From Flavobacterium xueshanense (GTDB lineage: Bacteria; Bacteroidota; Bacteroidia; Flavobacteriales; Flavobacteriaceae): a stretch of 64,000 nt of DNA. Location of the stretch: NCBI RefSeq assembly GCF_900112975.1, contig NZ_FONQ01000006.1, forward strand, positions 1 to 64,000, written 5' to 3'. Below the pieces are notes generated by a model that made no database searches, was not told the origin of the DNA, and worked only from the letters and a program-made list of their open reading frames with translations. Positions 6,132 through 64,000 of the stretch are shown piece by piece. Position numbers and translations under genes: made by a program. The first letter of the stretch is position 1; each line of letters opens with the position of its first letter.

Positions 6132-6407
6132 TTAAATTATCTCTGCATTTAATCCTGCTTCTAATAATTGGGTGCATTGTGGTTTCAATTTGTCGTAAGG
6201 ACCTGTTTTTACGGTACATTTACCATTATAATGCACAATTAATGAACATTGTTCTGCTTGTTCCGGAGTGTGATTACAAACGCGAATTAAAGTTTCAATG
6301 ACATGATCAAAAGTGTTTACATCATCATTATAAACAATGATTTCGTTGTCTAAACTCACGGATTCTTTTACACTGACTCTCTCTCTTACTTTTTCTTTAG
6401 TACTCAT
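6132..6407 (-). CDS. clpS: ATP-dependent Clp protease adaptor ClpS
   Basis: A 91-residue N-degron adaptor that hands substrates with destabilising N-terminal residues to the ClpA/ClpC-ClpP protease. The family core is VYNDDVNTFDHVIETL (residues about 25-40), in which Asn and Asp bind the alpha-amino group of the degron. HTPEQAEQCSLIVHYNGKCTVKTG follows. The charged N-terminal tail of about 20 residues is the part that enters the unfoldase. It is downstream of prmA on the same strand. Confidence 0.93.
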   Translation of the reverse strand: MSTKEKVRERVSVKESVSLDNEIIVYNDDVNTFDHVIETLIRVCNHTPEQAEQCSLIVHYNGKCTVKTGPYDKLKPQCTQLLEAGLNAEII

Positions 6408-6452
6408 TTTGTAAGTTTTTGTACTTTCGTAATTAATAAAAAAATAGTACCT

Positions 6453-7286
6453 CTAATTTACGAATTTTAAAGATACCCAATTGTTTCTTTCAAATTTTTT
6501 AACATACCTAAGACCTTTCTCGGTACACGAAGCGTCTATAAATGGTATATCTTCCTGATAAAACCCGCTTAGAAGTAGTGTTCCATTAGAATTTAAACTG
6601 TCTACGTAATTTTGCATGTCATTCAACAAAATATTCCTGTTAATGTTGGCTATAATTAAATCGTATTTTTTACCTTCCAATAGTGCAGCTTCACCTTCAT
6701 AAACGGTAATATGTTTGCAATTATTGCGTCCGGCATTTTCAATGGAGTTTAAATAACACCAGTTGTCAATGTCAATGGCATCAATTGGTTGGGCACCTTT
6801 CATCTCTGCAAGAATCGCTAAAATGGCAGTTCCGCATCCCATATCAAGGGTTTTCATTCCGGTAACATCCATTTCCAACAAATGCTGAATCATCATGTGC
6901 GTAGTCTCATGGTGACCTGTTCCAAAACTCATTTTTGGCTCGATAACGATATCAAATTCGGCATTCGTTTTTGGGTGAAAAGGAGCACGTACGTGACAAT
7001 TTCCTTCTACATCAATGGCTTCAAAATTCTTTTCCCATTCTTCATTCCAGTTTACTTGTTCAATTTCTTCAAAAGTATAATCAATCGTAAACTCTTTGGA
7101 TTGTAAAATGTGGATATCTTCTAAAATAGTTTCATCCCATAAATCCTTTTGAACAAAAGCCGAAATCCCTGTTTCAGTTTCTGTGAAACTTTCGAAGGCT
7201 TTTTCGCCCAACTCTGCAATTAGTATTTCAGAGCCTAATTCTTTTGGAGTAACAGTAAAATGATACCCAATATAAATGTTTGACAT
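6453..7286 (-). CDS. prmA: Ribosomal protein L11 methyltransferase
   Basis: S-adenosylmethionine-dependent methyltransferase that modifies ribosomal protein uL11. It has the PrmA-specific substrate domain (residues about 1-60), the EPKMSFGTGHHETTHM stretch, motif I LDMGCGTAILAI, and the NINRNILL catalytic loop. The start is placed at 7286 (MSNIYIGYHF) rather than at 7316: a -7 promoter element covers 7300-7308, inside the longer frame. The predicted length of 277 residues suits the family. clpS lies downstream on the same strand, a common Flavobacterial order. Confidence 0.94.
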   Translation of the reverse strand: MSNIYIGYHFTVTPKELGSEILIAELGEKAFESFTETETGISAFVQKDLWDETILEDIHILQSKEFTIDYTFEEIEQVNWNEEWEKNFEAIDVEGNCHVRAPFHPKTNAEFDIVIEPKMSFGTGHHETTHMMIQHLLEMDVTGMKTLDMGCGTAILAILAEMKGAQPIDAIDIDNWCYLNSIENAGRNNCKHITVYEGEAALLEGKKYDLIIANINRNILLNDMQNYVDSLNSNGTLLLSGFYQEDIPFIDASCTEKGLRYVKKFERNNWVSLKFVN

Positions 7287-7299
7287 GCTTATTTTTTTT

Positions 7300-7308
7300 G
7301 CAAAGGTA
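7300..7308 (-). promoter_or_regulatory. -7 promoter element for prmA
   Basis: TACCTTTGC on the minus strand, 14 bases before the chosen prmA ATG. It overlaps upstream in-frame codons and so decides the start. Confidence 0.55.
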
Positions 7309-7350
7309 ACAATCACTATTTAAACCGCATTTGTAAATCAAATTTTATTT

Positions 7351-7359
7351 TACATTTGC
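7351..7359 (+). promoter_or_regulatory. Promoter of the porin gene
   Basis: TACATTTGC (-7) with TTTG at 7330-7333 (-33) and 17 bases between them. It is 23 bases before the porin ATG. Confidence 0.6.
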
Positions 7360-7381
7360 ACCGTTAACGCACAACTTTACA

Positions 7382-8605
7382 ATGAAAAAAATTATTTTAT
7401 TTTTTGTTTTTCTATCCAGTTTTACCAGCATTGCTCAAGTTAATATAAAACAAAACAAGCAGGATAATGATTTAAAATTATCGGCACTTCCTTATTATAG
7501 TTTTGGTAAAGGAATTGGGATAACTTCACCTGACAGTCTATACCAATTAAACATTCGTTTTCGAATGCAAAACAGGTTAACTTATTATGAAAATGAAGAT
7601 GAGAAAGGCGTTTACGATGGGCAAATCAGAAGATTACGTTTGCGATTAGACGGATATGTGGGAAATCCAAAATTTTTATACGCAGTTCAATTGTCATTTG
7701 CTCCGGGCGATGTTGGTGAAATTAGAGAAGGTGAGAACATAAATATTATCAGAGATGCAGTTGTTTTTTACAGACCTAATAGACACTGGAATATCAGTTT
7801 TGGACAAACAAAATTACCAGGAAATCGCCAGCGTGTGAATTCTTCAGGCGGATTACAGTTAACGGACCGATCGATTAACAATGCCAAATTTACAATTGAC
7901 AGGGATTTTGGTTTTCAAGTTCACAATATGAACGAATTTAAAGATGAATTTTCCTATAATTTCAAAACAGCTATTTCAACAGGAGAAGGTCGAAATATCA
8001 CGGGGAATACAGATGCAGGTGTTGCCTTAACTGGTAAGGTAGAGCTGTTACCGTTTGGAGCGTTTTCAAGAGACGGAACCTATTTTGAAGGGGATATTGT
8101 AAGAGAAAAAAAACCAAAATTGATGCTTTCAGGAGCTTTTCAGCAAAATAATCATGCCAAAAGAACTCAAGGTCAATTAGGGAATGATTTATTTGAAGCT
8201 CGTACTATGAAATCATTTATGCTTGATGTTTTGGTTAAATACAATGGTTGGGCCGCCATGTCAAGTTATATGTCGAGAACTACTTCAAAAAATGCCGTAA
8301 CAGTAAATCCAAATGATATTTCACAATCTAATTTTGCTTACGTTGGTAACGGATTTGATCATCAATTGAGTTATAATTTTCCTTCCAATTATGAAATTAT
8401 TGGCAGATATTCCACTCAAAAAGTTGGAGCGGATATCCGGACTTTGGCTCCAAATTCTAAACAATACACTATTGGTTTAACCAAATATGTTTGGGAACAT
8501 ACTTTTAAGTTGCAAAGTGAATTGACTTTTGATACTTTAAATTATTTTGACGGAAGCACAAAAAATAATTGGTATGTACGTTTTCAGGTGGAAATAGGAA
8601 TTTAA
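7382..8605 (+). CDS. OprO/OprP-type phosphate-selective porin
   Basis: A 407-residue outer-membrane protein with a signal peptide (hydrophobic about 5-15, cleavage after SIAQ). The domain is a phosphate-selective porin O/P barrel: RFRMQNRLTYY, IRRLRLRLDGYVGNPKFLYAVQLSF, the FGQTKLPGNRQR strand, and the final strand WYVRFQVEIGI. Arg-rich strands are typical of this anion-selective family. Phosphate or polyphosphate specificity is family knowledge and not proven here. It sits alone on the plus strand between prmA and tpiA, with its own promoter and terminator. Confidence 0.88.
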   Translation: MKKIILFFVFLSSFTSIAQVNIKQNKQDNDLKLSALPYYSFGKGIGITSPDSLYQLNIRFRMQNRLTYYENEDEKGVYDGQIRRLRLRLDGYVGNPKFLYAVQLSFAPGDVGEIREGENINIIRDAVVFYRPNRHWNISFGQTKLPGNRQRVNSSGGLQLTDRSINNAKFTIDRDFGFQVHNMNEFKDEFSYNFKTAISTGEGRNITGNTDAGVALTGKVELLPFGAFSRDGTYFEGDIVREKKPKLMLSGAFQQNNHAKRTQGQLGNDLFEARTMKSFMLDVLVKYNGWAAMSSYMSRTTSKNAVTVNPNDISQSNFAYVGNGFDHQLSYNFPSNYEIIGRYSTQKVGADIRTLAPNSKQYTIGLTKYVWEHTFKLQSELTFDTLNYFDGSTKNNWYVRFQVEIGI

Positions 8606-62630: not shown

Positions 62631-63224
62631 TTAATCTAAATGTTTACAAATTAGCTCATCTATATTAATAATATATTTTTTAAGCGCTATGATGTTTTCA
62701 GTCAAATCTTTATTAGAAACATCTGATGCTTCATCATTGTGATGAAGAATTTTATTTCTTTTCACAACGATTGAATTTATAGCTTCTTTTTGTATGTTGA
62801 ATTCTGAATTTTTTTCAAGTTCAATTCCAAATTTTTTAAATAAATCTCTTGTTTTGAAAGGGTTTCCTGAAATGGAATCATCTAAGTCTTTCTTTTTTAT
62901 TTCCAGTTTGAGGCTTTTAAATTTTAAATCTGTTTCTTTAATATCTTTTTTTGCACCTAAACCCCACAAAATTAAGTTATGTGGCAATTTTGCAGAAACT
63001 AATTTGGCATTTGTGTCATCAACTATGGTCATTAATGAATCTTTTAAGTAAGATTCCAGATATGCACACATCGTTATTAAAAATGCTTTAGTGAAAAAAT
63101 TAGCATTATCATAAATTAGCGAATCCGGTGGATCGGAAATTATACGACTATTTGTATCCTCAATAATTGACGACAACTTCTCTAACTGCAAAATATATGA
63201 TTCTTTGTACGGCGTTTTATCCAT
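62631..63224 (-). CDS. HEPN-like nuclease of the MAE_28990/MAE_18760 type
   Basis: A 197-residue helical protein. The helix ANFFTKAFLITMCAYLESYLKDSL (about 41-64) and the C-terminal RNKILHHND give the HEPN signature: R156-N157-xxx-H161 is the RNxxxH ribonuclease motif. The central part (75-145) is a charged helical insert. HEPN proteins of this group are thought to cut RNA in defence and stress systems. The gene overlaps the 3' end of the upstream DUF262 gene by eight bases, so the two are made together. Target and trigger are unknown. Confidence 0.85.
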   Translation of the reverse strand: MDKTPYKESYILQLEKLSSIIEDTNSRIISDPPDSLIYDNANFFTKAFLITMCAYLESYLKDSLMTIVDDTNAKLVSAKLPHNLILWGLGAKKDIKETDLKFKSLKLEIKKKDLDDSISGNPFKTRDLFKKFGIELEKNSEFNIQKEAINSIVVKRNKILHHNDEASDVSNKDLTENIIALKKYIINIDELICKHLD

Positions 63225-64000
63225 TAAGTGTTTCCAGTTTTTTAGTCCAAAGTTGACGTCTTATTAATATCGAATATTTAGACTGAAGTCCACCAGAGAG
63301 ACTCTTTGTGAAATTTGGTTCGTTACAAAGCTCATTGAACTTCGTCAATATGCTTGCTTTATGTTCGGTTAAAAACTCTATTGATAAGCCTTTAAAGCTC
63401 CACATTAACAAATCGTAATAAACTAAACTTTGTCTTTGCTTCGTTTTTGTTATATCAACAAAAGGATTATTATTAAATACGAATAAACATTTTTCGAGCG
63501 TTTCTGTAAAATCCTTTTTTAATTGATTAATTGTTGCTTCATCGGGGTTTTGATTTGTCTCAATATATTTGTCTAAATATTTTGAAAGTTTATTTTCATA
63601 ATCTCCCAAATCATTTTGCATCGCAAAAAAGCGTAATATCATTTCCTCTTGTTCGCGACTGTCTTTTTCTTTAGTGCCTGATTTTCCTTTACCAAATGCG
63701 TTAATAAAATGATGTCCGCCAAGTTCAATAAGTAAACTATCAAGATTTCCAGGATAAATAGCGTGTCTTATCTCTTGATCCGAAAGTTGAACAGCTCCTT
63801 GATTTAAACGAGCGAAAATTTCTTTGACAAGTTCTTTAGGATTTTCTTTTCTAAGAATAACGCATCGAATTGTTGTGCTTTCAAGTTCATTTTTATAATC
63901 TCCGAGTTCAGAAAACAATTTTCCCTCTAACTCTCGAAAAACGGTCATTCTTTCAAGTTTAAATTCATCATTAAAGAATTTTTTGATAGTGGTTATTCTT
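63217..64000 (-). CDS. DUF262 (GmrSD N-terminal type) protein, C-terminal part
   Basis: The open frame runs to the window edge at base 63999: ITTIKKFFNDEFKLERMTVFRELEGKLF, then TTIRCVILRKENPKELVKEIFARLNQGAVQLSDQEIRHAIYPG. This is the second half of the ParB-like DUF262 domain; the upstream DGQQR motif should lie just beyond the edge (visible residues would follow it directly as RITTI). The last 120 residues are helical, with no DUF1524 HNH motif. DUF262 proteins occur in restriction (GmrSD) and other defence systems. The first M in the window (63948) is not the start. Confidence 0.85.
   Translation of the reverse strand, partial: RITTIKKFFNDEFKLERMTVFRELEGKLFSELGDYKNELESTTIRCVILRKENPKELVKEIFARLNQGAVQLSDQEIRHAIYPGNLDSLLIELGGHHFINAFGKGKSGTKEKDSREQEEMILRFFAMQNDLGDYENKLSKYLDKYIETNQNPDEATINQLKKDFTETLEKCLFVFNNNPFVDITKTKQRQSLVYYDLLMWSFKGLSIEFLTEHKASILTKFNELCNEPNFTKSLSGGLQSKYSILIRRQLWTKKLETLNG

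Follow-up and report, generated by a model that had tools for sequence, protein, structure and literature searches.

A DUF262–HEPN gene pair as an apparently intact, mobile defence candidate of the PD-T4-2-like kind

PD-T4-2 is given, in the part of PMC10952713 that was available, as a DUF262 protein together with a HEPN protein of family PF18735. According to the available sections of Vassallo et al. (2022, PMC9519451), this system guards E. coli against T4, and its deletion in ECOR65 increased T4 plaquing. Menshen, in the same part of PMC10952713, has a DUF262 protein beside a predicted OLD nuclease. A further line, in a table drawn up from genome context, records Ribo L-PSP-HEPN in an 'operon with ParB' (Anantharaman et al. 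2013, PMC3710099, in the section available). The gene pair described here has the same HEPN family and the same kind of partner as that entry, which is a line in a table and not a tested system, and the section in question does not set the clade of our pair apart. We found no literature on this clade, and no functional test of it.

The window, that is, the whole stretch of 64,000 bases that was analysed, corresponds to bases 1-64000 of contig C26 (170,703 bases) in a draft assembly of 33 contigs with a completeness of 100. At its right end, the original prediction had placed an overlapping DUF262–HEPN pair that was cut by the window edge, and had proposed it as a candidate defence module. Both open reading frames and their eight-base overlap were reproduced at these positions (Table 1). 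From the continuation of the contig we read the remaining 251 bases of the DUF262 gene to the right of base 64000, so the module is indeed cut by the edge. The sequence IDGVQR lies across base 64000, and the motif was therefore hidden from a reading confined to the window. The two proteins together comprise 541 aa.

Table 1. Features of the pair (window positions, unless contig C26 is named)
Feature	Position	Strand	Remarks
HEPN gene	62631-63224	-	197 aa; RiboL-PSP-HEPN, PF18735; probable RNase effector
DUF262 (GmrSD_N) gene	63217-64000 in window; start at C26 base 64251	-	344 aa; probable nucleotide-dependent sensor/gate
Overlap of DUF262 stop and HEPN start	63217-63224	-	8 bp; translational coupling
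HEPN catalytic motif R156-N-K-I-L-H161	62742-62759	-	K155, R156, N157, H161, N163 and D164 invariant in 22/22 aligned proteins
DUF262 motif D81-G-V-Q-R85	C26 63997-64011; in window 63997-64000	-	Read from the full translation

The original prediction had also proposed to look to the right of the window for DGQQR and other defence genes, and had allowed for further members of the module there. The motif is present as DGVQR; further module members are not. On the 5' side, the DUF262 gene is bordered by 509 bp without a listed gene and then by a divergent SH3-domain gene, followed by a gene for a 469-aa protein that matches nothing in Pfam and by genes that, by appearance, are putative thrC, thrB and thrA. 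A small membrane-like protein, negative in Pfam, is encoded on the 3' side of the pair. The SH3-domain protein and two other scanned neighbours gave no PADLOC match, and neither these three scans nor the listing of neighbours revealed a defence island around the pair. The G+C content of the pair is 30.1% compared to 33.0% for the window, and at third positions it is 22.7-22.9% compared to 26.5-38.3% in ten other measured genes; this low composition may be taken as a mild sign of foreign origin. The neighbour P0005, a rare membrane-like protein (2 of 61 genomes), was of no help in defining an insertion site.

The HEPN protein matched Pfam PF18735 with an E-value of 1.3e-19 (71.3 bits, cut-off 28.4), and so did the HEPN proteins of all the 22 pairs that make up the window's clade, here defined by 22 aligned proteins. 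The RNxxxH motif was rightly predicted to be intact, with R156 and H161 at codons 62759-62742, and it is invariant throughout the alignment; the invariance of R156, N157 and H161 is consistent with the HEPN protein being the effector. In its AlphaFold model (mean pLDDT 85.9), the protein has the helical fold that, together with RNxxxH, defines the HEPN superfamily. VIA-align ranked the HEPN toxin from the MntA-HepT system (6m6u_H) first for this model, with a Z of 10.0 and an rmsd of 3.7 across 126 residues, and among the top 16 rows, 10 were titled HEPN or MntA-HepT and one (6y07) was a designed protein; a family missing from the rows of this method is not thereby excluded. Foldseek alone gave nothing under an E-value of 0.001. 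As helical bundles can reach a Z of about 10 by chance, the assignment rests on the match to PF18735 and the invariant RNxxxH. A sequence search of the PDB gave nothing credible, and NCBIfam gave nothing besides one match far under its cut-off. In PADLOC, a few of the 22 clade HEPN proteins had weak matches to Cas13-ApeA, CARF-HEPN and similar models; we rejected these labels, which are weak, limited to few members and absent from the window protein.

HepT toxins carry the motif RX4-6HXY, and AMPylation of the Tyr two residues after the His silences the toxin. The pair resembles the HepT-MntA (HEPN-MNT) toxin–antitoxin system in its predicted HEPN fold and in being a two-gene module. However, its partner is a DUF262 (PF03235) protein and not an MNT nucleotidyltransferase, and Asn (N163 in 22/22) stands two residues after the motif His, in place of the AMPylated Tyr. 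Control of this HEPN protein must therefore differ from that of HepT, presumably acting via DUF262.

The DUF262 domain named in the original prediction was recovered by Pfam (PF03235, GmrSD_N; E 7.1e-24, above the curated cut-off). Residues D81, G82, Q84 and R85 are invariant in the 22 aligned proteins, and so is an FQR motif. The HNH domain, described as missing from the part inside the window, is absent from the whole 344-aa protein as well: Pfam found neither HNH nor DUF1524 in it, and neither of them in the HEPN protein or in the three scanned neighbours. We modelled the fold on a relative with 76% identity (L035; pLDDT 85.2). The best PDB matches of this model were BrxU (E-value of 7.3e-3 in Foldseek; Z 9.4 in VIA, though with an rmsd of 14.8), then nucleotide-bound ParB (ParB-CDP) and sulfiredoxin, and SspE aligned with residues 5-153 (Z 7.1, rmsd 3.7); no Foldseek match fell under an E-value of 0.001. 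These matches support, short of proof, a ParB/Srx-type fold for the modelled protein. Rows for F1-ATPase in the C-terminal half had a Z of about 5 and were taken as chance.

GmrSD, BrxU and SspE thus share with the pair a DUF262 domain with DGxQR and a ParB/Srx-type fold, the latter predicted here; they differ from it in that the pair lacks DUF1524/HNH and has a separate HEPN protein as the partner. The likeness would suit a type IV restriction system, in which recognition and cleavage of (modified) phage DNA would both be done by DUF262, as in GmrSD or BrxU, and the HEPN protein is a helper or a backup, since PF03235 is the N-terminal domain of GmrSD and BrxU is the top structural match. However, no HNH/DUF1524 match exists along the whole protein, and residues 167-344, which are helical in the model, yielded no nuclease in fold searches, where an absence excludes nothing. 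We consider this explanation quite improbable.

Using the DUF262 protein as query against one genome per species, we found 21 relatives with 53-76% identity. In 20 of these 21, all from named genomes, the same HEPN gene lies next to the DUF262 gene in the same order, a pairing that is far beyond chance. The exception, L054, lacks a HEPN gene, its DUF262 gene (6342-7384) is split in two, and it is a decayed copy of the clade pair. One more relative, in genome G146 of the window's genus, has both genes. With the gene starts nearest the aligned ones, the two genes overlap by 1-32 bp in 18 of the 21 other loci, most commonly by 8 bp; at the remaining junctions, they abut once and are separated once by 25 bp and once by 30 bp (in the last, DUF262 ends early). 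When the open reading frames of 23 loci were clustered, the large clusters were DUF262 (23 loci) and HEPN (22 loci). Among the clusters listed for these loci, no third module gene appeared, the other clusters being confined to two loci at most, and the neighbouring genes varied from locus to locus. PADLOC gave few matches for 92 neighbours of the relatives, these being what was left of 113 computed neighbours after 21 doubtful ORFs, mostly from G+C-rich loci, had been dropped.

The hosts of the pair belong to the Bacteroidota, the alpha-, beta- and gammaproteobacteria, the cyanobacteria (one host) and the Verrucomicrobiota (one host). The DUF262 and HEPN trees are concordant (Mantel r 0.85, a value reached in 0 of 9,999 permutations), and hosts of different phyla or classes stand side by side in both of them, which indicates that the pair moves as a unit. 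Within the window's genus, the HEPN gene was carried by 2 of 199 genomes, both of which have the pair; in the phylum sample, it was carried by 1 of 395, namely the window's own. The homologues are thus not mainly separate core genes, an outcome that the original prediction had named as speaking against it. A non-defence housekeeping role might be suggested by the putative thr biosynthesis genes nearby and the lack of an obvious island, and is largely contradicted by this distribution: a HEPN gene so rare in the genus, and a prophage-borne pair spread over four phyla with changing neighbours, make it a very improbable reading. At one locus of the clade (L035:128-1688), an HTH gene and two genes that overlap each other, a putative split HipA-type toxin–antitoxin locus, precede the pair by 300 bp.

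We also searched viral contigs. The HEPN profile recovered six loci, every one with DUF262. The DUF262 profile gave nine matches, of which seven belong to the clade (55-59% identity), with HEPN beside all seven; the six HEPN contigs lie among these seven, and there are two groups of near-copies. These contigs were found only with alignments, a search with the single DUF262 protein confirming none, and a tblastn search of plasmid and phage records with the HEPN protein gave no match. In hosts of the clade, the pair lies immediately upstream of the genes for terminase and portal in Roseibacillus (L048), and is adjoined by an integrase and a CI-like repressor in Pseudoalteromonas (L052). Of the more distant DUF262–HEPN pairs, one is flanked by tail genes in a Klebsiella phage (Peduoviridae) and another adjoins a CI-type repressor gene in a Vibrio phage. 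At 10 plasmid or phage places, the next gene encodes a HEPN protein in eight (one after a 200-bp gap), an NsnB ATPase in one and no listed partner in one; these places were hand-picked from 174 matching records, and 8 of 10 is therefore not a rate. Placement of this kind is typical of prophage cargo, prophages and mobile elements being the main carriers of defence systems (Vassallo et al., PMC9519451, in the part available).

The window's clade is one branch of a wider family. A DUF262 match was present in 36 of the 199 genus genomes, at 45 places. Loci were seen for 30 of these 45, comprising the window pair, the G146 copy and 28 distant loci with 27-39% identity in DUF262; the other 15 were mostly weak matches. 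Downstream of the 28 distant DUF262 genes, the partner was a Pfam HEPN protein in eight (one just under the cut-off), an RNxxxH protein without a Pfam match in two and, by sequence, an AAA15-type ATPase in eight, and ten loci had neither in the stretch covered. Five of the eight ATPases were scanned, and all matched PADLOC NsnB with 280-407 bits. The spacing between DUF262 and partner ranged from -41 to +4 bp. The HEPN profile of the clade recognised none of the 28 loci in the stretch covered. At three of them (L025, L027 and L031), a similar-looking protein of about 200 aa is encoded directly upstream of DUF262 with no HEPN or ATPase downstream, possibly a third type of partner; the one from L025 had no PADLOC match at an E-value of 1e-5.

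We built a tree of 57 DUF262 proteins. The 22 of the window's clade grouped with a support of 100, and the nine ATPase-paired proteins formed one group (support 97). The 39 Pfam-HEPN-paired proteins, including that of L067, came together with a weak support of 82, with L009 also inside the group, and the motif-only pairs L030 and L033 fell outside it. The tree was made by a 'quick' method with long proteins cut at 480 aa and L022, L029, L032 and L058 left out, and several long branches meet in it, among them L061 with L067. With moderate support, the window's clade lies on the RNase side of the family. The occurrence of HEPN or ATPase genes next to one type of DUF262 indicates a single effector slot, filled in some members by an RNase and in others by an ATPase.

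The PADLOC labels for the pair have to be read in this light. The window DUF262 protein matched NsnA (E 1.6e-71, the best) and PD-T4-2_A (E 1.1e-42); each of the two models matched 22/22 clade DUF262 proteins, with NsnA scoring higher. The window HEPN protein matched no PADLOC model. PD-T4-2_B did not match any of the 22 clade HEPN proteins at E-values up to 10, nor anything in the window's genome at 0.001.

We take NsnA, NsnB and NsnC to be the Menshen genes and an NsnA label to mean Menshen. The pair is like Menshen in the type of the DUF262 subunit, in gene order and in short overlaps; however, an AAA15/DUF3696 ATPase occupies the effector slot of Menshen, and a HEPN protein that of the pair. 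Were the pair a Menshen variant, its DUF262 protein would be an NsnA working with an OLD-like ATPase and the HEPN protein would be incidental, as the best label and its presence throughout the clade may suggest. We find this hardly credible. The downstream slot holds HEPN and not NsnB in 22 loci, and NsnB is absent among the 25 of 28 families listed for the 92 neighbours. The NsnB matches of the genome are weak partial ATPase matches, the best covering 71 of 345 positions with a score of 29.1 bits, compared to 280-407 bits for full partners; the model also matches in 14/14 control genomes. The clade furthermore joins the HEPN-paired DUF262 proteins and stands apart from the ATPase-paired group. 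With HEPN in the partner slot, no full NsnB in the genome and this moderately supported tree against it, the NsnA label of the window DUF262 protein is misleading. Surveys with PADLOC 2.0.0 could miscount modules of the clade, labelling the DUF262 protein as NsnA and missing the HEPN protein. As an observation on PADLOC-DB 2.0.0 (PDLC03877, PDLC04028), the NsnA model also takes HEPN-paired DUF262 proteins, namely 22/22 of the clade and both scanned ones from E. coli plasmids, and PD-T4-2_B misses 22/22 clade HEPN partners and, at an E-value of 0.01, six of the seven distant ones scanned.

PD-T4-2 likewise consists of two overlapping genes, DUF262 and then HEPN. The window DUF262 protein has 36% identity over 232 positions to that of L067, whose HEPN protein matches PD-T4-2_B (E 8.3e-51) and whose pair lies between putative hsdS- and hsdR-like genes. 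In contrast, the window pair has no adjoining restriction genes, its DUF262 proteins form a separate clade, and its HEPN protein, which lies outside the PD-T4-2_B model, is weakly similar to a PD-T4-2 HEPN protein (BLASTP E 0.002; hhalign probability 55, in the N-terminal part). Because the HEPN protein fails this model, we call the pair PD-T4-2-like and not PD-T4-2 itself.

The comparative evidence points to a two-gene defence by DUF262 and HEPN, of which PD-T4-2 is an antiphage example; to this extent the candidate defence module is supported. Its extra members have fallen away, and the proposed sensing plus abortive RNA cleavage stays an inference. We favour, at a probability of roughly 0.6, a PD-T4-2-like two-protein antiphage module, with DUF262 as sensor and gate and HEPN as the RNA-cutting enzyme. 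Being made together from overlapping genes, the two proteins would probably associate in a complex. DUF262, having a predicted ParB/Srx-type NTP-binding site and no nuclease domain of its own, would bind and hydrolyse NTP, and may recognise a cue from the phage, the likeliest being its DNA or the state of replication or modification of that DNA. A conformational change in DUF262 would then release or assemble a HEPN dimer, whose R156/H161 sites would cut RNA and halt phage production, probably costing the infected cell. What the analysis shows of this is both domains with their motifs intact, the overlap of the genes, their joint inheritance, horizontal spread and carriage by prophages, and, as predictions, the folds. 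The pair is apparently an intact, mobile defence candidate with a well-supported clade of its own, of a kind already known.

Much of the same evidence could be read as a toxin–antitoxin or addiction module, with the first-gene DUF262 as the antitoxin restraining a HEPN RNase toxin, so that a mobile element is stabilised and phage protection is secondary. The order with the antitoxin first, the overlapping genes and the small size would fit, the HEPN model is closest to HepT-type toxins, the pair occurs on prophages, and also on plasmids if the wider family is included, and the sole relative without HEPN (L054) has a broken DUF262 gene. On the other hand, a passive antitoxin would not need the nucleotide site that is conserved across the clade, DUF262 proteins of this type also have AAA15 ATPases as partners at the equivalent position, and the wider family contains tested defence systems. 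We regard this explanation as unlikely; toxin–antitoxin and defence roles are compatible and not exclusive.

Beyond the antiphage module that we favour, we tentatively suggest a broader proposal, which we hold to be less likely than not: that DUF262 of the NsnA type serves generally as a switch that senses phages and has one downstream effector slot, for a HEPN RNase or an AAA15 ATPase, and that the clade is a distinct, phylum-crossing form of DNA-sensing and RNA-cutting immunity, separate from PD-T4-2 and missed by the PADLOC effector models. How the nucleotide switch of DUF262 would drive the HEPN RNase is left without explanation for PD-T4-2 in the available parts of the literature cited. 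The pair of this clade, being small, conserved across phyla and self-contained, makes a convenient test object.

Some minor observations concern the DNA upstream of the pair and the rest of the genome. A 17-base palindrome with 7-base arms lies at C26 64334-64350, outside the window and 83-99 bases upstream of the DUF262 start. We rejected it as a conserved operator: it has a single copy in the genome, and the regions upstream of five relatives do not have the same repeat. Scanning upstream of DUF262 with what we take to be the Bacteroidetes-type promoter motif (-7/-33) gave one -7-like match on the right strand, without a spaced -33 element. The same genome has a second DUF262 domain (G000:C19:16507-17133) within an open frame of 841 aa, which may encode a fused enzyme like GmrSD.
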